A DNA stretch of 64,000 bases, from assembly GCF_041468085.1 (NCBI RefSeq), contig NZ_CP121017.1, positions 1,405,501 through 1,469,500 on the forward strand, in the 5' to 3' direction. Origin of the DNA: Tistrella mobilis. Its GTDB lineage: Bacteria; Pseudomonadota; Alphaproteobacteria; Tistrellales; Tistrellaceae. Of the stretch, positions 7,789 to 16,991 are shown piece by piece. The translations under genes were made by a program, and so were the position numbers. Under the pieces are notes generated by a model, which saw only the letters and a program-made list of their open reading frames with translations, ran no database searches and was not told the origin of the DNA. The first letter of the stretch is position 1, and the number at the start of each line of letters is the position of its first letter.

Positions 7789-9909
7789 ATGACAGGCGAG
7801 ATGATCACACCGGCCACCATGCCCTTCAGCCTGACACCGGATCAGGCGGCGGCGCTCGATGCGATCGAGGCCTTCCTGCGTGACGACGCACCGGATGCCT
7901 TCATCCTGCGCGGCGGGGCCGGCACCGGCAAGACGGCGCTGATCGCGGCCCTGGTCGCCCGGATGGCGGGGCGGAACCTGTCTCCGGCCCTGGTTGCCCC
8001 CACCGGTCGGGCGGCACGTATCCTGACCCACAAGGTGGGCCGGATGGCTGGGGGCGAGGCCGTGACGGCCGTGACCATCCATCGTGCGATCTATGCGCTC
8101 GACCGGATCGAGGTGAACGAAGAGGCCGTCTCCGAGACCGATCCCGGCATGCGGATGATCTTTCCGCTGCGGGGGGAGGAAGCCGTTGCCCCGCTGATCG
8201 TGGTCGACGAGGCTTCGATGGTCGGCGACCGCGAGATGCAGGGCGATCTGCTGCGCTTCGGCTCCGGGCGGTTGCTGGCGGACCTGATCGCCTTCTGTCG
8301 CATGCGGCGACCGGGGCGCGAACGGGATCGGCTGGCGAAACTGCTTTTCGTCGGCGATCCCGCCCAGCTGCCGCCGGTGGGGGAAGAGACATCGCCTGCG
8401 CTCGATGCCGGTCATCTGGCCGCGGCCTTCGGGTTGAAGGTCACCGGCTTCGACCTTGCGACGGTGCTGCGCCAGGCCGAGGGCAGCGCCATTCTGGACC
8501 GGGCGACCCGCATCCGCGAGGCGCTGGCGGCGGAGCGGTTCGACACGCTCTCTCTCAGCCCTGATGGCGCGGAGATCATGGAGGTGGATGCCGCCGGTGC
8601 CGTCGGGGTGATCGTCGACGGCATCCGTGCGCGGGAACAGGCGGTGGCGGTGGTGGCCTCCAATGCCACCGCGCTCGACTACAACCGCAGTGTCCGCGAA
8701 CGGCTCTGGGGCGATGCCGCCTTGCCGGTGCAGGCCGGCGACACGCTGCTGGTCAACCGCAATTCACGCCGCCATGGCCTCAGCAACGGCGATGTGGTGA
8801 AGGTGTTGTCGGCCGACGATCCGGCCGAAACCGTGCCGGTGCCGCTCGCCGGCGGCCATCTGGTCACCCTGCGTTTCCGGCATGCGGTGGTGGCGCATCG
8901 CGAGGGCGATGGTACGGTCGTCCGCACCCGCTGCCTGTTGCTCGAAAACCTGCTCGACCAGCCGGGGCGGGACCTCACCCCGCTGGAACAACGGGCGCTG
9001 CTGGTCCATTTCCGCACCCGTCATCCGGATCTGTCGCCCAAATCCGCGGCCTTCCGGCAGTTGATCGTGGAAGACCCTTATGTGAACGCGCTCCAGGTCA
9101 AATACGGCTATGCCGTCACCTGCCACAAGGCCCAGGGCGGGGAATGGCAGACGGTGCTGGTCCATTTCGCGCCCGGCCGCGGTCTGCGCAATCCGGCATT
9201 CTTCCGCTGGACCTACACCGCCATCACCCGGGCGGTGCGCCGGCTGATCGTGGTCAACCCGCCGGATTTCAGCCCGGCGGATGTCTGGGCGCATGATCCG
9301 GCACCGGCAGCCATGGCCGACACCGCGTCAGAGGATCCGCGGACGGATCCCGACTGGTATCGGCTGTCCTTTCCCGGCACCGCCGCCCCGCTGATGGCGG
9401 TCCACCGCCGGCTGCGCGCCGCCTGGGCGGCCCGGGGGATCACGATCGAAGGGCTGCAGCATCTTCAGTATTGCGAGCGCTACACCCTGGCCCGCGACGG
9501 CCGGCGGGTCATGGTGCAATACCACTACAACGGAAAGTTCCGGCCCGGCCGGGCCGGCCTGGCGCCGGGCGGCGGCGATGCCGGGCTGGCCGGGGATGCC
9601 ATCAGGGCGTTCCAGGCGCTTGAGGATGATGGGGCCGGGGCGGGGCAGCCGGCCTTCATCCGGGATTTCCTGATCGAACTGGACGCGGCGCTGGCGGGGA
9701 CGGCCATCCGGCGCACCGGCCAGAAACCGATGCCCTATCGCCTGCGCATCGGCCTGGCAGATGCCACCCGTGCGGGTGAGATCGATGTCATCCACGACGC
9801 CCGCCAGAACTGGACCGCGGTCCAGGAGGTCGGCGGCCCCGGCGCGACCCACGGGCTTTGCGACGAGCTGCGCCGGTTGATGACCGCACATATCGGTTAC
9901 CGGCCGTGA
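7789..9909 (+). CDS. RecD/Dda-like SF1 helicase with C-terminal extension
   Basis: This is a superfamily 1 DNA helicase of about 706 residues. Walker A GGAGTGKT is at about 42-49, Walker B 'LIVVDEASMVGD' at about 136-147, motif III 'LLFVGDPAQLPPVG' follows, and the UvrD-C2 segment 'YAVTCHKAQGGEWQTV' is near 441-456 with 'YTAITRA' after it. About 185 residues beyond the helicase core form an extra domain ('GLQHLQYCERYTLARDGRR', 'YHYNGKF') that I have seen only in helicases of this sort; its role is unknown. The stop overlaps the next gene's GTG by three bases (GTGA), so translation is coupled. The start is uncertain (TTG 7780, ATG 7789 or 7801; no strong ribosome site). Confidence 0.8.
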   Translation: MTGEMITPATMPFSLTPDQAAALDAIEAFLRDDAPDAFILRGGAGTGKTALIAALVARMAGRNLSPALVAPTGRAARILTHKVGRMAGGEAVTAVTIHRAIYALDRIEVNEEAVSETDPGMRMIFPLRGEEAVAPLIVVDEASMVGDREMQGDLLRFGSGRLLADLIAFCRMRRPGRERDRLAKLLFVGDPAQLPPVGEETSPALDAGHLAAAFGLKVTGFDLATVLRQAEGSAILDRATRIREALAAERFDTLSLSPDGAEIMEVDAAGAVGVIVDGIRAREQAVAVVASNATALDYNRSVRERLWGDAALPVQAGDTLLVNRNSRRHGLSNGDVVKVLSADDPAETVPVPLAGGHLVTLRFRHAVVAHREGDGTVVRTRCLLLENLLDQPGRDLTPLEQRALLVHFRTRHPDLSPKSAAFRQLIVEDPYVNALQVKYGYAVTCHKAQGGEWQTVLVHFAPGRGLRNPAFFRWTYTAITRAVRRLIVVNPPDFSPADVWAHDPAPAAMADTASEDPRTDPDWYRLSFPGTAAPLMAVHRRLRAAWAARGITIEGLQHLQYCERYTLARDGRRVMVQYHYNGKFRPGRAGLAPGGGDAGLAGDAIRAFQALEDDGAGAGQPAFIRDFLIELDAALAGTAIRRTGQKPMPYRLRIGLADATRAGEIDVIHDARQNWTAVQEVGGPGATHGLCDELRRLMTAHIGYRP

Positions 9910-11318
9910 GCTCGCGGGAGATCTTCGCCCTGCGCCGGCAGGGCCGTCATGCCGAGGCGCTGGATCTGGCGCGCCGTGCCCATGCCGATGCCGGGGACGG
10001 GGCGTCCGATCTCTGGCTGCTGCGCGCCTATGCCTGGGTGCTGTACGACCGGATCCGGCAGGCGGTGGAGGCGCACGATGCCGGGCGCCTGTCCCCCACC
10101 GCGCTCACCGCTGCAATCTCGCCGCCCCTGCGCGAATTCTCACGCATGGGGGATCCCCTCCGACGGGACAGCGCCTTCTCGCAGATCCTGCGTCTGGCCG
10201 GGAAGGTCTCAGGCGTCTGGCCGGACTTCCTGGCCTTTGCCCATTGGGCCGGCATCGACGACTTCACCTGGGACGACCGCGAGCCATTCGTGGACGAAAC
10301 CGGCCGCAAGCTCGACGACCTGCGCACCCGCTTCATCCGGGCGGTCTGTCGCGCCACGGTGGCGAAGGCAGGCGCCGGCGGTCCTGAGGGCGCAGCCGTG
10401 GCCTGGGGGAGGGAGGTACTGGATCGTGCGCTTGAGGCCAGGCCCGATGATCAATGGCTGAACTACTACCGCAGCAGGTTGCACCTCGCCGATGGTGAGA
10501 CCGCACAGGCGAGCCGCCGCCTGGTCCCGGTGCTGCGCCGTCAGGGGCGGGCGGCCTGGGTCTGGGGTCTGCTGGGCGAGATCCTGGAAGAGGCGGGCGC
10601 GCGGGGCGATGCCCTGATCTGCCTGATCCATGCCACCCGTCTTGCCCGCGAGGAACAGGAGCTGGGCCAGCTGCGCATCCGCCTGGCCCGGCTTCTGGCG
10701 CTCGACAGCCGCTTCGACGAGGCGGCGGAACAGCTGCGCCAGGCGATGCAGTACCGCGAGCAGCACGGCTATCGCATCCCGCCGGAACTGGCGGGCCTCT
10801 GCGCGGCCGACTGGTTTGCAGGCGCGGTTGCGCGGGCGCCGGCACCGGTTGAAGCCGAAGCCGAAGCCTTGCTCCGCGGGCTGGAGCGCGCGAATCTCAG
10901 CTACAGCCCGGGCGTGATCGACCATGTCAACACGGCCAAGGCGTTGAGCTATGTGGCGACGGGTGCCAGCAGCGGCTTCGTCCTGCCCCATGGCCGGTTC
11001 CCGGCGATCAGGGATCTGGTGCCGGGCACGGTGGTGGAGGTCGGCCATGTCACGGCCGACGGGCCCGCGCTCGACTGGCGCCCCTCTGCCGCCACATCCC
11101 TGCCGGGGCTGTGCGAGAGCTTCACCGGCGTGATTGACCGCCAGGAGGACCAGGCTTTCGCCTTTCTGCGCAGCCCCGGGGGCGATGTCTTCGTGCCCCC
11201 CGATCTTGCAGCCGGGGTTGCTGTGGGCAGCTGGCCGGGCCGAAGCTGCCTTGCGATCCGGCGGACCGACAGGAAGGGGCGCACCGGCTGGCGGGCCGTC
11301 CGGCTGTCTGGCGCCTGA
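9906..11318 (+). CDS. TPR-repeat protein with C-terminal cold-shock/S1-like domain
   Basis: This 470-residue protein starts at a GTG inside the helicase stop codon. Helix-rich TPR-like units fill residues about 1-330 ('GRHAEALDLARRAHADAG', 'WGLLGEILEEAGARGDALICL', 'RFDEAAEQLRQAMQY'). The last about 65 residues ('FTGVIDRQEDQAFAFLRSPG' then 'DVFVPPDL') have the beta-strand pattern of a cold-shock/S1 nucleic-acid-binding fold, with possibly a second such barrel just before. No signal peptide or membrane helix is present. I recall a TPR plus S1/CSD arrangement from the predicted 'TOTE' conflict systems; no primase or nuclease is present here, so that link is inference. With the helicase it likely acts on nucleic acid. 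Confidence 0.65.
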   Translation: MSSREIFALRRQGRHAEALDLARRAHADAGDGASDLWLLRAYAWVLYDRIRQAVEAHDAGRLSPTALTAAISPPLREFSRMGDPLRRDSAFSQILRLAGKVSGVWPDFLAFAHWAGIDDFTWDDREPFVDETGRKLDDLRTRFIRAVCRATVAKAGAGGPEGAAVAWGREVLDRALEARPDDQWLNYYRSRLHLADGETAQASRRLVPVLRRQGRAAWVWGLLGEILEEAGARGDALICLIHATRLAREEQELGQLRIRLARLLALDSRFDEAAEQLRQAMQYREQHGYRIPPELAGLCAADWFAGAVARAPAPVEAEAEALLRGLERANLSYSPGVIDHVNTAKALSYVATGASSGFVLPHGRFPAIRDLVPGTVVEVGHVTADGPALDWRPSAATSLPGLCESFTGVIDRQEDQAFAFLRSPGGDVFVPPDLAAGVAVGSWPGRSCLAIRRTDRKGRTGWRAVRLSGA

Positions 11319-11330
11319 TGCATGAACGCA

Positions 11331-11360
11331 ACGGGCGGCACCCGCGAAGGTGCCGCCCGT
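11331..11360. terminator. Perfect 12-bp hairpin between convergent genes
   Basis: ACGGGCGGCACC (11331-11342) and its exact complement (11349-11360) form a hairpin with a 6-nt loop, only 12 bases past the TPR gene stop and 24 bases before the trcR stop. There is no clean U-tract on either strand, but position and strength fit a shared transcription end. Confidence 0.6.
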
Positions 11361-11384: not shown

Positions 11385-11978
11385 TCAATAGTCGTCGTTG
11401 AAGCCGAACTCTTCGTCATCGTCGAACTTCATCGGTTCGGGGATCTGCTCGTTGGGGTCGCGGTTCAGCCGGCGGATGGCCAGCTCGCGGTTCAGGTCGG
11501 TCTGGGTGCACAGGCCCAGCAGCACCGGATCGCGCGGCTTGATATTCGGGCTGTTCCAGTGGGTCCGGTTGCGAACGGCATTCACCGTCTGCTTGGTCGT
11601 GCCCAGCAGCTTGCAGACCTGCGCATCGTCGAGCTCGGGGTGGTTCTTAAGCAGGAAGGCGATCGCGTCGGGCCGCTCCTGGCGCTTGGCCACGGGGGTG
11701 TAGCGCGGGCCCTTGGTCCGGCGCATCAGCGGCACGGTCGGCTCACGCAGCTTCAGCCGCGCCGCCGGGTTGCGCTCGCAGCGCGTCACCTCTTCCGGGG
11801 TGAGCTGACCGTTCTTGATCGGATCCTGACCGACGATGCCGGTCGCGACGTCACCATCGGCGATGCCCTGAACCTCCAGCGGATGAAGGCTGCAGAACTC
11901 GGCAATCTGGTCGAAGGTGAGGGCGGTGTTCTCGACCAGCCAGACGGCAGTGGCCTTCGGCATCAGGGGACCAGCCAT
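11385..11978 (-). CDS. trcR: TrcR-type cell-cycle transcriptional regulator (DUF1013)
   Basis: This 197-residue protein matches the DUF1013 family, highly conserved in alphaproteobacteria, whose Caulobacter member is called TrcR. Diagnostic stretches are 'MPKATAVWLVENTALTFDQI', 'HPLEVQGIADGDVA' and 'LLGTTKQTVNAVRNRTHW'; the last looks like a helix-turn-helix. The C-terminus is very acidic. GAGGAG precedes the ATG. It acts as a cytoplasmic DNA-associated regulator in the family; targets are not visible here. The upstream quinone-reductase gene is on the same strand but separated by a terminator. Confidence 0.88.
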   Translation of the reverse strand: MAGPLMPKATAVWLVENTALTFDQIAEFCSLHPLEVQGIADGDVATGIVGQDPIKNGQLTPEEVTRCERNPAARLKLREPTVPLMRRTKGPRYTPVAKRQERPDAIAFLLKNHPELDDAQVCKLLGTTKQTVNAVRNRTHWNSPNIKPRDPVLLGLCTQTDLNRELAIRRLNRDPNEQIPEPMKFDDDEEFGFNDDY

Positions 11979-12090
11979 GTCGCTCCTCGTTCGAACTGTT
12001 CAGGCTACCGCCTGGCAGGCACCCGCTGGGGGCTCGGGGATGGGCCCCCGGCGGCGGTCGTGCCGATGACTATAGCGAAGCCCCGGCTTT

Positions 12091-12130
12091 AAACGAAAGC
12101 CGCGCGACAGGCAAGCACCGTCGCGCGGCC
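12091..12130 (-). terminator. Intrinsic terminator after the quinone reductase gene
   Basis: GCCGCGCGAC (12099-12108) pairs with GTCGCGCGGC (12120-12129). On the minus strand the stem is followed by TTTCGTTT. It ends the transcript from the gene at 12156-13181 and isolates trcR. Confidence 0.75.
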
Positions 12131-12155
12131 ATTTGTGTGACCGGCGGCCATGGGC

Positions 12156-13181
12156 TCAGAGATCGGCCACCTTCAGCACGATCTTGCCGACATGGGTGCT
12201 GCCGTCCAGGCGGGCATGTGCATCGGCCGCCTGCGTGAAGGGTATCACACTGTCGATCACCGGCCCGACCCGGCCGGCTTCGATCAGCGGCCAGACCTTT
12301 TCGGCCAGCGCATCGGCGATCGCCGCCTTCTCGGCCACCGGCCGGGCGCGGAGTGTGGAGCCGGTCACGGTCAGCCGCTTCATCATGATCGGGCGAAGGT
12401 CGACCTCGGTCTTCGGTCCCTGCAGGAAGGCGATGTAGACCAGCCGGCCGTCGCGGCGCAGCAGCTGCAGATTGCGGCCCAGATAGGGGCCGCCGACCAT
12501 GTCCAGGATCACGTCGACACCGGGATCGCCGGCGGTCGCGGCCTCGACCGCCTCTTTGAAATCCGTGGTGCGATAATTGATCGCAAGCGTCGCCCCCAGC
12601 TCTTCGCAGGCCCGGCACTTGTCGTCGGACCCCGCCGTGGCATAGACCTCGGCGCCGAGCGCCGCCGCCAGCTGGATGGCGGTGGTGCCGATACCGCTGG
12701 ATCCGCCATGGACCAGCAGGCGTTCACCCGCCTTCAGCGCGCCGCGCTCGAAGACATTGGTCCAGACGGTAAAATAAGTCTCGGGCAGGGCGGCCGCCTT
12801 CACCAGGTCCAGCCCCGCCGGCACCGGCAGGCATTGTTCCTGGGGGGCCGCCACATATTCCGCATAGCCGCCACCGGTGACCAGCGCGCAGACCCGATCG
12901 CCCGGCTTTACCCGGGTGACGCCGTCGCCGGCCGCGACCACCACGCCTGCAACTTCCAGTCCCGGAATGTCCGAGGCACCGGGCGGCGGGGGGTAGTTGC
13001 CCTGGCGCTGCAGCGAATCCGGCTTGTTGACGCCGGCGGCGGCAACCCGGATCAGCACCTCGCCATGGCCTGGATGCGGGACGGGGCGCGTGCAGGGCTT
13101 CAGTACCTCGGGACCACCGGGGGCGGTGATCTCGATCGCGGTCATGGTGTCGGGCAGTACGGTCTCGGGTTGGGCGGTCAT
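12156..13181 (-). CDS. NAD(P)H quinone oxidoreductase, zinc-free MDR (PIG3/zeta-crystallin type)
   Basis: This 341-residue cytoplasmic medium-chain reductase probably reduces quinones or other electrophilic carbonyls with NADPH. It shows 'AAGVNKPDSLQRQGNYPPPP', the 'PGLEVAGVV' loop, and the nucleotide-binding 'LLVHGGSSGIGTTAIQLAAA' (G-x-G-x-x-A pattern). The catalytic-zinc cysteine cluster of alcohol dehydrogenases is absent, as expected for this subfamily. ATG at 13181 is preferred because GGAGA is eight bases upstream; another ATG lies at 13145. It appears monocistronic. Confidence 0.88.
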   Translation of the reverse strand: MTAQPETVLPDTMTAIEITAPGGPEVLKPCTRPVPHPGHGEVLIRVAAAGVNKPDSLQRQGNYPPPPGASDIPGLEVAGVVVAAGDGVTRVKPGDRVCALVTGGGYAEYVAAPQEQCLPVPAGLDLVKAAALPETYFTVWTNVFERGALKAGERLLVHGGSSGIGTTAIQLAAALGAEVYATAGSDDKCRACEELGATLAINYRTTDFKEAVEAATAGDPGVDVILDMVGGPYLGRNLQLLRRDGRLVYIAFLQGPKTEVDLRPIMMKRLTVTGSTLRARPVAEKAAIADALAEKVWPLIEAGRVGPVIDSVIPFTQAADAHARLDGSTHVGKIVLKVADL

Positions 13182-13332
13182 GCGGGGCGTCTCCGGTCTT
13201 GTCCTGCGGTGGCGGGGCACCACCGCGGCCCCGGTCGGACGGGGCACGGCTGTCGGAAATGATCATTCCGGTTCGCGGCCGAGCATGGACCCAAAGCCGG
13301 CCGGATGGAAGGGGGCGCGGATGCGGGCAGGC

Positions 13333-14142
13333 TCAGGGCTCCAGCACCATGCCCTCACGCGCGACCACCGTGCCGGGCCGGCGTTCGGCAACCTCGGCGG
13401 CGATGCGGTCCATCTGCTCGTCGTCATGGGCCGGGTCGTGATGGAAGACGACATAGGTCTTCACGCCCGCTTCCTCGGCCAGCCGCATGCCGGCCGACCA
13501 TGTGGAATGGCCCCAGCCGATCCGGCTCGGATATTCCTCATCGGTGAACATGGCGTCGTAGACCATGATGTCGGCACCGGCCACCAGCTCGGCGATACGC
13601 GGATCGACGCCCTCGGCCGGGTGCTCGGTATCGGTGATGTAGCAGATGGAGCGGCCGTCGAATTCGACCCGGTAGCCCACCGCCCGTTGCGGGTGGTTGA
13701 GCAGGGCGGTGCGGATCCGGATTCCGGGATGCGGCTCCAGCACATCGCCCGGGGCGAAATCGCGGAAGCTCATATCCGCCTTCATGATCTCGACCGGGAC
13801 CGGAAAGACCGGGTCGCTCATCAATGCACACAGCAGGTCGCGCAGATTGCGCTCGGGATGCAGGTGCCCGGCCCACATCCGATAGGTGTTGCGCGGATCG
13901 AAGGCGGTCGAAAAGAACGGGAAGCCGCAGATATGGTCGAAATGGGTGTGGGTCAGGAACAGATCCGCATCCACCGGAACCCGGGTTCTCAGCTCGTCGT
14001 CCAGGACACGCAGCCCCGTGCCGGCATCGAAGATCAGGCGTCGGTCTCCGCATCGTATCTCAAGACACGACGTGTTGCCGCCATAGCGGACCGTCGACGG
14101 GCCGGGGCAGGCGATGCTGCCGCGCACGCCCCAGAACTTCAC
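13333..14142 (-). CDS. MBL-fold metallohydrolase (paralogue 1)
   Basis: This is a metallo-beta-lactamase-fold hydrolase of 269 residues. It carries the metal-binding motif 'LTHTHFDHICGFPFF' (HxHxDH), a later 'SICYITDTEH' and 'GWGHSTW', and a C-terminal 'YVVFHHDPAHDD'. Family members hydrolyse phosphodiesters, thioesters and similar bonds; the substrate is unknown. GTG at 14142 is chosen: AGGA lies upstream and the paralogue at 14461 starts at the equivalent residue ('FWGVRGSIACP'). The two paralogues are divergent and about half identical by eye. There is no signal peptide. Confidence 0.82.
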   Translation of the reverse strand: MKFWGVRGSIACPGPSTVRYGGNTSCLEIRCGDRRLIFDAGTGLRVLDDELRTRVPVDADLFLTHTHFDHICGFPFFSTAFDPRNTYRMWAGHLHPERNLRDLLCALMSDPVFPVPVEIMKADMSFRDFAPGDVLEPHPGIRIRTALLNHPQRAVGYRVEFDGRSICYITDTEHPAEGVDPRIAELVAGADIMVYDAMFTDEEYPSRIGWGHSTWSAGMRLAEEAGVKTYVVFHHDPAHDDEQMDRIAAEVAERRPGTVVAREGMVLEP

Positions 14143-14460
14143 CCAGAATTCCTGTGTCTTTGCCAATCCCTTACCCGCCGTTTCGAGCGGCCTCTCCTGT
14201 CCGACCCCGCGTGCTCTACAGGTATATGGTGACAGGGATGCGACGACACCCCATGCGGTTCCGGCATGGCCGGCCCGCACCGGTGTCTTTCCGGCGGTCC
14301 CTGTCCGTTCGGCCACCGCTCTCCCGGCGGTGATCCGTGCGTCTCCCGAACGGCAGTTTGCCTGCTTCGGTGGCGTGATGCAAACCGCGCACATCTTGCC
14401 CGGAACGTCGCCGCACACTACGGTTCTGAAGACGACAGGCCGATCACCACGAACAGGCGC
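14143..14460. other. Divergent promoter region between the two MBL paralogues
   Basis: This 318-bp gap separates the starts of two divergent paralogous genes and must hold both promoters. I could not identify a convincing -35/-10 pair or a shared operator in it, and no protein gene is supported. Confidence 0.4.
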
Positions 14461-15315
14461 ATGATGACCTTTTCAGTCGCCTTCTGGGGGGTACGCGGCA
14501 GCATCGCCTGCCCCACACCCCGTCATATGCGCTATGGCGGCAACACGTCATGCGTGGCGGTGACCTGTGGGGACCGCCAGCTGATCTTCGATGCCGGTAC
14601 CGGCATCCGCGAGCTGGGGCACCATATGAACCTTGCGGGCGTGCGCACCGCCACGCTGCTGCTGTCGCACACCCATTGGGACCACATCGTGGGCTTTCCC
14701 TTCTTCTCGCCCGCCTTCCGCCGCGGCAACCGGTTCGAGGTGCTGGCCGGCCATCTGATCGCGTCGGGCGGCATCCGGCGGGTCATCGACCGCCAGATGC
14801 AGGCGCCGACCTTTCCGGTGCCGCTGGAGGCGATGAATGCCGAGATGACCTTCGACGATTTCGCCGCCGGAGATACGCTGATGCTGGGCCCCGACATCCG
14901 GGTCCGGACCCTGCCGCTCAACCACCCCGACGGTGCTACCGGTTATCGCATCGACCATGCCGGTCGGTCTGTAGCCTACATCACCGATACCGAACATCGC
15001 CCCGACGGACCCGATCAGAATGTGCTGGCGCTGATGGACGGGGTGGATCTCGCGATCTATGACAGCACCTATACCGACGACGAATATCCGGCCAAGGCCG
15101 GCTGGGGGCATTCCACCTGGCAGGAAGGGGTGCGTCTGGCGCGGATGGCCGGCGCGCGCCGGCTGGCCATCTTCCATCACGACCCGGATCACGAGGATGA
15201 TTTCATGGACCGGGTGGGGGCGGCTGCCGCGGTGATGTGGCCGTCGGCTTTCGTTGCCCGCGAGGGTCTGGTGGTCGACCTGTTGACCGACAGCTTCCAC
15301 GATCTGCCGCGCTGA
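14461..15315 (+). CDS. MBL-fold metallohydrolase (paralogue 2)
   Basis: This 284-residue MBL-fold hydrolase is closely related to the divergent neighbour at 13333-14142. It shares 'FWGVRGSIACP', 'RYGGNTSC', 'LIFDAGTGIREL', the metal motif 'LSHTHWDHIVGFPFFSP', 'VAYITDTEH', 'GWGHSTWQEGVRLA' and 'IFHHDPDHEDDF'. The start is ATG at 14461 or 14464; the ribosome site is weak. Its C-terminus is slightly longer than that of the paralogue. A local inverted duplication of one ancestral gene explains the arrangement. Function is unknown beyond metal-dependent hydrolysis. Confidence 0.82.
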   Translation: MMTFSVAFWGVRGSIACPTPRHMRYGGNTSCVAVTCGDRQLIFDAGTGIRELGHHMNLAGVRTATLLLSHTHWDHIVGFPFFSPAFRRGNRFEVLAGHLIASGGIRRVIDRQMQAPTFPVPLEAMNAEMTFDDFAAGDTLMLGPDIRVRTLPLNHPDGATGYRIDHAGRSVAYITDTEHRPDGPDQNVLALMDGVDLAIYDSTYTDDEYPAKAGWGHSTWQEGVRLARMAGARRLAIFHHDPDHEDDFMDRVGAAAAVMWPSAFVAREGLVVDLLTDSFHDLPR

Positions 15316-15521: not shown

Positions 15522-16511
15522 TCAGCGGATGGCGACCGGGTTGATGATTGCCTGCACCGCGCCGGTATAGCGGGGCTGGCCCAGCACGAACATGAACTCG
15601 TACGCCTTGTCTTTCGCGAGTTCGGTGGTGTTCATGTTCTCAAGGATGTAGACGCCGTTCTGGGGCAGCAGAATCTGGTGCACCTCGAAAACGCCCGCGC
15701 CCTGCTCGAAGGGGATCACCTCCAGCGCCCAGCTGTCGGCGCCGACCGCGACCACGCCCTTCTCGGCCAGATAGCGCGCGCCTTCGCGGCCGAGGCCCGG
15801 CTCGCCGGTCGAATAGCGTTTGTCGTCCTTGCCGATCAGGCTGATCCAGCCGGTGTGGAACAGCACCACGTCGCCCTTGCGGATCTCGACGCCCTGCTTC
15901 TTTGCGACCTCGTCGATCTCGGCCTTGTTGAAGGCGGTGCCTTCCTTGACGACATCGGTGCCGTAATGGGCGGCCATGTCGAGCAGCACGCCGCGGGTGG
16001 TGATCGGGGGCACCTTTTCGATGCCGAGCTTGGTCAGCCCGGTCATCGCTGCGAAATCCTTGGCCTGATGGCCGTTATAATAGGTGCCGTCGATGCCGAT
16101 ATGGCCAAGACCGTCGAGCTGGCTGCCGATGCCCATCCAGCCTTCGACGATGTCGTCGTTGTAGGTGGTCTTGGTCGGCCCCAGGCTGGCGCCCTGGGTC
16201 TGGCCCGGCTGAACGACATAGATCTTGAAGCCGCGCGGCGCATAGGCCGGCGTCTTGGAATTGGTTTCGATGCCGAGCGGATAGGTCTTGCCGGTCTTGA
16301 CCAGCTGGGCCGCCTCCAGAACCTTTTCGGGGCTGAGGTTGTTGGCGGCGCCGATCTCGTCATCCGGGCCCCATTTGGACTTGGTCCAGTCGTCGGCGGC
16401 CAGTGCGACGCCGGCGATCAGACAGCCCATGGCGGTTGCTGCGGCGGTGCGTGCAAGGCGCCGGGCATGTCTGCGGACGGACAGGCCGGTACCGTGGCGG
16501 GTCGTGGTCAT
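15522..16511 (-). CDS. Exported cyclase-family (kynurenine-formamidase-like) hydrolase
   Basis: This 329-residue protein has an arginine-rich N-terminus followed by a hydrophobic stretch and a likely signal-peptidase site ('LIAGVALA' then 'ADD'), so it should be exported; the RRHARR start could suit Tat. The mature part matches the cyclase family (PF04199, metal-dependent amide or ester hydrolases): 'SQLDGLGHIGIDGTYYNGH' in the metal-site region, 'TRGVLLDMAAHYG', 'KGDVVLFHTGW', 'VVAVGADSWALE'. ATG at 16511 has GGAGGAG upstream. The substrate is unknown. The gene is flanked by a large AT-rich promoter gap. Confidence 0.82.
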   Translation of the reverse strand: MTTTRHGTGLSVRRHARRLARTAAATAMGCLIAGVALAADDWTKSKWGPDDEIGAANNLSPEKVLEAAQLVKTGKTYPLGIETNSKTPAYAPRGFKIYVVQPGQTQGASLGPTKTTYNDDIVEGWMGIGSQLDGLGHIGIDGTYYNGHQAKDFAAMTGLTKLGIEKVPPITTRGVLLDMAAHYGTDVVKEGTAFNKAEIDEVAKKQGVEIRKGDVVLFHTGWISLIGKDDKRYSTGEPGLGREGARYLAEKGVVAVGADSWALEVIPFEQGAGVFEVHQILLPQNGVYILENMNTTELAKDKAYEFMFVLGQPRYTGAVQAIINPVAIR

Positions 16512-16991
16512 AAGGGTCTTCTCCTCCCTGAGCGGTCCGGCCTGTTCCGGGCCGGATCGCCGCCTGACGTGGCCGGCCGCTCCGTTGGGCAGAAGTGGCA
16601 GCCGGTCCACCTGCAGCCCCCGCCATCGTCATCGTGGCGGGGTGCATGCCATCGGGGCGTGTCGTTCATTCCCGGAGATGCCCCCGGATGCCGCCCCTTT
16701 GCCGTGAATGGTTAACTGAATATTATCGGCGCGCAAGCTGATTATAAATTTAGCGCAATGTAAGAAATCTTTTGTCTAGTTTCTTGATATTTTGATCACT
16801 TTAAACATGGTTTGAGAATTGATGCACTACGAAGGTATGCATCTGATCATGTTGCGCTGCGGCAGGCAGGCGCGGCCTTGACGCTGGCGGGGGCGGGCCG
16901 GGCGGGGCTAGACTGCGACGGCGCTGCGGGATCCTCCGGAAGGGCTTCCGGGGGCGGCGGCGCCGTCAGAGTTCAGAGGAGCCGTTTCGTC
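16512..16991. other. 480-bp divergent promoter gap with AT-rich core
   Basis: Bases about 16710-16850 are far more AT-rich than the surroundings. On the minus strand a perfect TATAAT (complement of 16741-16746) faces the cyclase-family gene, with only a poor -35. Plus-strand promoter candidates for the dehydrogenase lie in the same island, but none is clear. No gene is supported in the gap. Confidence 0.4.

Follow-up and report, generated by a model that had tools for sequence, protein, structure and literature searches.

The TOTE conflict systems, whose name stands for TPR, OB, TBP and Effector, have been described (PMC12458937, quoting Aravind, Iyer et al. 2022), and several Pfam families bear their name. 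A second body of proposals consists of the putative defence candidates (PDCs) obtained via 'guilt by embedding', which come mostly without experimental validation, according to PMC12988326; among them, PDC-M16 is held by PADLOC as a candidate two-gene system. Among the open papers searched, no test of PDC-M16/TOTE pairs was found, nor the term PDC-M16 in the text. Here we describe a pair of overlapping genes of Tistrella mobilis, encoding a superfamily 1 (SF1) helicase and a TPR protein, at positions 7789-11318 of a 64,000-nucleotide stretch of contig NZ_CP121017.1 (positions 1,405,501 to 1,469,500, forward strand), which is referred to as the window. Judged by its profile matches, the pair is a HEPN-less addition to the already listed candidate family PDC-M16/TOTE. 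We consider it probable that the two genes form a complete, maintained module of this type, most likely directed against phages or mobile elements, and the evidence favours a maintained complex that handles nucleic acids and descends from conflict systems.

Domain architecture of the helicase and its TPR partner

Both proteins matched the models of the PDC-M16 components, the helicase with 942.9 bits against the PDC-M16A model PDLC04476 (residues 11-700 against 1-687 of 691) and the partner with 678.6 bits against the PDC-M16B model PDLC04481 (profile positions 2-467 of 471). The Pfam family TBP-TOTE, described in its entry as 'TATA-binding-like protein domain of the TOTE conflict systems', was found twice at the end of the helicase (Table 1), and S1CSD-TOTE-2 (PF22707) at the end of the partner (54.6 bits against a cut-off of 27). 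As all three matches exceed the Pfam cut-offs, they bear out the link to TOTE systems that an initial annotation of this DNA had suggested.

That annotation had also described an intact SF1 core, an additional C-terminal domain and a TPR scaffold ending in a fold of the S1/CSD type, and each of these was recovered. SF1 helicase domains were found by Pfam, and in an alignment of 42 relatives, from which all invariance figures including those of Walker A and B in Table 1 are taken, the remaining motif residues are invariant as well (G189, D190, Q193, L194 and P196; H446 to W453; Y476, T477, T480 and R481). Fold searches with the whole helicase model were taken up by matches to the core (residues 8-495), which resembles the Dda/RecD2 structures 9kwf (Z 29.2, 3.1 Å over 315 residues), 3gp8 (Z 28.9, 2.9 Å over 333) and 3upu (Z 28.3, 4.4 Å over 400). 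Assignment to ordinary RecD2 (TIGR01448) or to RecD of RecBCD (TIGR01447) was rejected, given that the helicase scored 97.5 bits against a curated cut-off of 500 and 69.4 bits against one of 310.15, respectively.

The C-terminal domain (about residues 518-706) goes beyond what had been annotated, in that it is predicted, from the Pfam matches and the modelled topology, to consist of two TBP-like repeats. In the AlphaFold2 model (mean predicted local distance difference test score, pLDDT, 85.8; 42 sequences) the tail forms two alpha-beta4-alpha units, an arrangement that we take to be consistent with a duplication of the TBP type. A search of PDB sequences with a tail-only profile up to E 10 returned no TBP chain, its single, chance-like match being a bromodomain protein (E 0.41).

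In the partner, DUF7017 scored above its Pfam cut-off and the TPR models below theirs, and the first S1/CSD lobe was weakly matched (PF22708, S1CSD-TOTE-1, 11.3 bits, below cut-off). In the model of this protein (mean pLDDT 93.9, 35 sequences), a helical repeat leads into a C-terminal part rich in beta strands. Fold searches with the whole model were taken up by residues 1-308, where TPR proteins align with the repeat (best Z 17.0, 5.8 Å over 273 residues).

The two open reading frames (ORFs) overlap by GTGA, as annotated. An alternative helicase start at ATG 7819, giving 696 residues, agrees better with most close relatives, whose helicases start 1-5 residues ahead of the position aligned to residue 13. 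When 60 helicase-partner pairs were scored (not quite the same 60 as in the tail/partner count given below), the exact 4-base overlap was possible in 18, and in 40 of the other 42 a start codon lies at most about 25 bases from the helicase stop. The pairing is more than chance, since adjacency of the two genes is kept in many relatives from several phyla.

Table 1. Coordinates, in the window, of the two genes, their motifs and domains, and the adjoining hairpin
Feature	Position	Strand	Basis or remark
SF1B (Dda/RecD2-like) helicase with TBP-TOTE tail, PDC-M16A	7789..9909	+	706 residues from ATG 7789
Walker A GGAGTGKT, helicase residues 42-49	7912..7935	+	sequence; G42, A44, G45, G47, K48, T49 invariant
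Walker B/motif II DEAS, helicase residues 140-143	8206..8217	+	sequence; D140, E141, S143 invariant
First TBP-TOTE repeat, helicase residues 535-598	9391..9582	+	PF22721, 67.9 bits alone, cut-off 27
Second TBP-TOTE repeat of helicase	9652..9882	+	PF22721, 55.5 bits alone, cut-off 27
GTGA stop/start overlap of helicase and partner genes	9906..9909	+	couples both genes
TPR/DUF7017 - S1/CSD (OB) partner, PDC-M16B	9906..11318	+	470 residues from GTG
TPR superhelix with DUF7017, partner model residues 2-329	9909..10892	+	Pfam and model
Beta-rich C-terminus, partner residues 332-468	10899..11309	+	model; S1CSD-TOTE-2 at about 11115-11306
Strong terminator-like hairpin separating the pair from the convergent TrcR gene	11331..11360	+	fold z -3.2

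Co-occurrence of tail and partner among relatives

Relatives of the helicase (loci designated by L numbers) were surveyed in the best 80 of 534 confirmed cases, and the counts describe those. For the tail/partner count, 83 loci were used, comprising 79 of the 80 surveyed and four plasmid loci, with L073, L088 and L089 dropped as duplicates; eight (L021, L024, L027, L033, L038, L054, L064 and L077) were set aside on account of contig ends, a frame break or partial tails. An adjacent partner was found for 60 of the 65 scoreable tailed helicases and for none of the 10 tail-less ones (Fisher p 3.6e-9, kinship ignored), so that the possibility, raised in the initial annotation, that the homologues never co-occur falls away. 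L020 and L022 were assigned manually to the class having both tail and partner, the partner of L020 lying beyond the distance limit and that of L022 being masked by a wrong-strand ORF call, an error to which our home-made ORF caller is prone in high-GC loci. Weak cases counted as partners include a 275-residue ORF at 61.8 bits in L051, two proteins cut by contig ends (L068 and L076) and the split partner of L007, a Pantoea locus in which the TPR gene (8103-9516) extends over two frames through a frameshift or a sequencing error.

In the helicase-core tree, for which no root was inferred, ten tail-less proteins (Marinobacterium, Amphritea, Nitrincola and L031) are grouped with a support of 87 and are nested in a set of 28 rows (support 100) that includes the window's clade of 18 rows (support 90). 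Tailed proteins occupy both halves of this tree, and L029 is a second tail-less case; L020 is labelled 'noTPR' there despite its partner, and the label 'HEPN' of L033 reflects its N-terminal length only. Because the tail-less set nests beside the window's clade, it is likelier, on this branching order, that tail and partner were lost together than that they were gained. Their joint absence from a nested clade leads to a testable prediction, namely that tail and partner bind each other.

The tail-less helicases of Marinobacterium, Amphritea and Nitrincola (L032, L034, L035, L038-L040, L042, L044 and L078) are about 480-525 residues long and have no detected partner; their recurrent shared neighbours suggest a settled role.

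Genomic settings and competing explanations

The surroundings of the relatives were searched with queries taken from genes first noticed in the same loci, so that the counts serve as description and a match in the source loci is given by construction. At least one query matched in 38 of 86 loci, among them seven of the 17 other loci of the window's clade (L002, L003, L004, L006, L007, L009 and L013) and none of the ten tail-less loci. In L002, L003, L004 and L006 the pair sits after BrxA, BrxB and BrxC and before a PglX-like gene, as part of bacteriophage exclusion (BREX) loci, with one additional ORF between in L002; these calls were made by PADLOC for BrxA, BrxB and BrxC of L002 and for PglX of L006, and by phmmer for the other BREX loci. 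PglX/Eco57I-type methylases occur in seven of the 86 loci, the four BREX loci included, HsdM and Cas1-like proteins in three each, and McrC and GmrSD in one each.

Reverse transcriptases were matched in 24 of the 86 loci (L077 being marginal and downstream, L067 on the opposite strand, and L073 and L074 from one contig) and relatives of an iREC-type protein in 15. A separate histidine-kinase query matched four loci, and the order reverse transcriptase-kinase-iREC is thus established for few of them. In L053 the gene order is reverse transcriptase, HisKin-conflict, a 210-residue protein, iREC protein, helicase and TPR. Together with the PDC-M16A/B matches, the defence settings of part of the relatives lend support to the probable conflict or defence role that had been proposed for the pair.

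Some further observations concern individual settings. Operons composed of reverse transcriptase, HisKin-conflict kinase (in few loci), iREC/receiver protein and the helicase-TPR pair (L053, 1223-9679; L055, L030, L043 and others) are found mostly in Bacteroidota. In L030 the reverse transcriptase is fused to the kinase and followed by a receiver-domain protein, and its top scores were obtained with PADLOC reverse-transcriptase models of retron-like name; it may be of retron type. A WYL-domain gene lies near the pair in 17 of the 86 loci. Behind the TBP-tailed helicase of L017 (5995-9761), a Cas10/Cmr2 palm-domain protein stands in place of the TPR partner, and the copy on a Rhodothermus plasmid (L085, 1-12521) is a few genes away from Csm6, Cas6, Cas2 and Cas1. 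The settings also include genes without a defence association, as in L016, which adjoins a valyl-tRNA synthetase gene.

The location of some relatives inside BREX loci, or behind reverse-transcriptase and iREC genes, would also fit a Tistrella pair that is inactive alone and modulates, as accessory or regulator, an effector whose gene lies at another place in the genome. This we regard as improbable, given that no match to BrxC (PDLC02483) was obtained in the Tistrella genome and no Brx protein among 54 other window ORFs, that HisKin-conflict gave no match in that genome, in a weak search that matched no control genome either, and that 48 of the 86 loci matched no context query, though the queries were few and the flanks mostly about 6 kb.

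Several relatives carry additional N-terminal parts. DUF4145 was matched above cut-off in the plasmid-borne helicases of Klebsiella (L084), Leisingera (L086) and P. veronii (L087); a Swt1-like HEPN match in L047 fell slightly under its cut-off (26.5 against 27.5 bits), and the motif RNRCxGH is common to L047, L058, L064 and L080. We take DUF4145 to be HEPN-like and RNRCxGH to be a HEPN active site. The seven HEPN-like relatives represent two changes on the tree, with none in the window's clade. The suggestion of the initial annotation that the pair is a reduced form is therefore unsupported, since no member of the 18-row clade has an N-terminal extension of at least 150 residues (the N-terminus of L015, cut off near its contig start, is not visible) and the best PADLOC model (691 residues) has the same extent as the window helicase. 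With no long N-terminus across this clade, absence of the HEPN-like part looks like the clade's own design.

The Klebsiella/E. coli pair of HEPN type was found in 53 of 5426 E. coli genomes, at 29 chromosomal and 24 plasmid places, by a search aimed at near matches (all of at least 99% identity, 42 of the 53 with at least 80% of the query), and insertion sequence elements flank the copies in both examples read. These data show that a distant relative (31% identity) has been mobile recently, and not that the window's pair has. Helicase relatives are present on 66 plasmids, of which 14 are conjugative and 45 mobilizable. A plasmid or phage replication or anti-restriction module stranded on the chromosome could be supposed from these plasmids, from the resemblance of the core to phage Dda, and from MT835724.1, a phage-collection entry of 24.5 kb, titled 'Bacteriophage sp.' and derived from human faeces, which carries relatives of both helicase and partner (11448-14868). 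Such an origin seems to us very improbable. None of 274 phage records reached 80% of the helicase query, the matches being mainly to the core, and the viral contigs, searched with core-derived patterns, contained Dda-like cores that all end by residue 552 (80 loci listed of 125 confirmed). It would also have to be reconciled with the identical chromosomal site of the pair in three Tistrella genomes.

At that site, present in 3/3 Tistrella genomes, the pair lies between genes for a major facilitator superfamily (MFS) transporter and TrcR; its near neighbours further include an oxidoreductase and two genes of the metallo-beta-lactamase (MBL) fold. The nearest named relative of the locus is that of Tistrella mobilis KA081020-065, with a helicase 88% identical. 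Ratios of nonsynonymous to synonymous substitutions (dN/dS) among the Tistrella genomes lay at 0.18-0.21 in the helicase gene and 0.15-0.18 in the partner gene, compared with 0.02-0.09 in five of the seven neighbours examined and 0.14-0.18 in the remaining two, TrcR and gene 15522-16610, which indicates that both genes are maintained, yet change faster than most of their neighbours. At the protein level, the pair differs by about 10-13% from one Tistrella genome to another, more than any of the seven neighbours does, 15522-16610 being close. Outside the genus, the distribution is patchy: among 385 alphaproteobacterial genomes, PDC-M16B (E 1e-20) was found in six and PDC-M16A (1e-100) in four, three of each being Tistrella.

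Several observations weigh against a defence function of the pair. It occupies one fixed site in the genus, as described above, and PADLOC found no convincing defence gene among the 54 other window ORFs, unlike in a typical defence island; the loci that matched no context query include all those of Tistrella. Pfam gave no match to a HEPN or primase domain, a nuclease or an RNase H in either protein of the pair, and no phage challenge or biochemistry of the PDC-M16/TOTE family was found among the open papers. As to the unity of the module, five tailed helicases had no detected partner (L017, L026, L037, L069 and L072), the contig of L026 ending just 1.5 kb past its helicase. A kinship-aware test of the tail/partner association comprised two independent pairs, both pointing the expected way, with a median p of 0.5; we therefore do not put forward co-loss as statistical proof, given that the Fisher value ignores kinship and a two-pair test cannot reach significance. 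In favour of the pairing, core and partner distances are correlated (r 0.965, 31 loci); special co-evolution of the tail with the partner was not supported, the partial r being 0.43 for the tail against 0.57 for the core.

The main rival to defence is a domesticated genome-maintenance pair, acquired long ago and serving replication-fork or recombination upkeep in Tistrella with the partner as loader. The fixed site, the purifying selection, the surroundings free of convincing defence genes and the kinship of the core to RecD2/Dda all favour it, whereas the patchy spread beyond the genus, the divergence of the pair relative to its neighbours, and the defence contexts or mobile plasmids of part of the relatives speak against it, and we judge it unlikely on balance. 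Domestication, as suggested in the initial annotation, agrees with the single site outside defence islands in three genomes, and less well with the completeness of the pair. Defence is ranked above maintenance because of the contexts of part of the relatives and the patchy spread, and genus-wide fixation keeps maintenance alive; on these comparisons of sequences and gene neighbourhoods, a defence function of the Tistrella pair remains likely.

Of the window's families, the 25 of 76 that were listed are metabolic and housekeeping ones. The seven neighbours, when sought in the flanks of the loci of other relatives (E 1e-15), were not found there. Placement of the window inside a defence island was rejected, the PADLOC names being limited to mad3 (two members) and the ZorA and ZorB models (one member each), which we read, without inspecting them singly, as look-alikes of the ABC and MotA/TolQ-OmpA types. 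The two MBL-fold genes, 13333-14418 (-) and 14446-15315 (+), are paralogues arranged head to head, with about 51% identity (tblastn).

Possible mechanism and comparison with known systems

If the pair acts in defence, it is reasonable to suppose that the TPR-OB protein would dock on, or act through, the helicase tail, and that tail and OB part might together recognise an odd nucleic-acid structure, such as an invader's fork, flap, R-loop or transcript hybrid. The motor, which would run 5'-3' if it is like its kin, could then translocate on this structure or unwind it, with the outcome that replication or transcription of the invader would be blocked or dismantled. Since no added part lies beside the Tistrella pair, the role of effector would fall to the helicase itself, and an intact helicase could fill the place of the TOTE-type effector. 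Elsewhere, relatives of the two proteins come with HEPN-like domains on the helicase, with a reverse transcriptase/iREC unit or inside BREX. As a more tentative proposal, which we hold to be possible rather than probable, the TBP-tailed helicase and TPR-OB protein may be a transferable recognise-and-unwind chassis, plugged into BREX between brxC and pglX, into a reverse transcriptase-kinase-iREC relay, into HEPN-like fusions and into a McrBC neighbourhood, and alone in Tistrella, where it would serve as a fixed complex for immunity or surveillance, its sole effector being the helicase.

Pairs of the PDC-M16/TOTE type are widespread, and some are carried on plasmids of common bacteria. The Tistrella copy, as a minimal two-gene form lacking HEPN, offers a simple test case for the roles of the TBP-like tail and the TPR-OB protein, and if its use both within BREX and alongside reverse transcriptases holds true, a single sensing or unwinding part would be reused by unlike immune systems.

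Among known proteins, the RecD2/Dda helicases (3gp8, 3upu, 9kwf) have a similar core (Z 28-29), whereas the window pair differs from them in its TBP-like tail, its TPR-OB partner and a score far under the RecD2 cut-off. The TALON systems have TPR-CSD and TBP proteins in common with it and combine them with the helicase YprA and a NERD nuclease, as described in PMC12458937, in place of the SF1B helicase of Dda/RecD2 type found here. With the TOTE conflict systems, as presented in the same source, the pair shares TPR, S1/CSD and TBP-like parts through the Pfam TOTE families, and it differs in that its TBP-like repeats form the tail of an SF1 helicase. The plasmid relatives with a DUF4145-helicase and a TPR protein (L084, L086 and L087) have core, tail and partner in the window's order and an additional N-terminal region of about 200-270 residues, absent from the window helicase; several other PDC-M16A models are likewise longer at the N-terminus (e.g. 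930 residues), as are the HEPN-like relatives. The closest likeness is to PDC-M16 itself, to which both proteins match end to end; the two genes of the pair are adjacent, and their architecture is the same as that of the best model.

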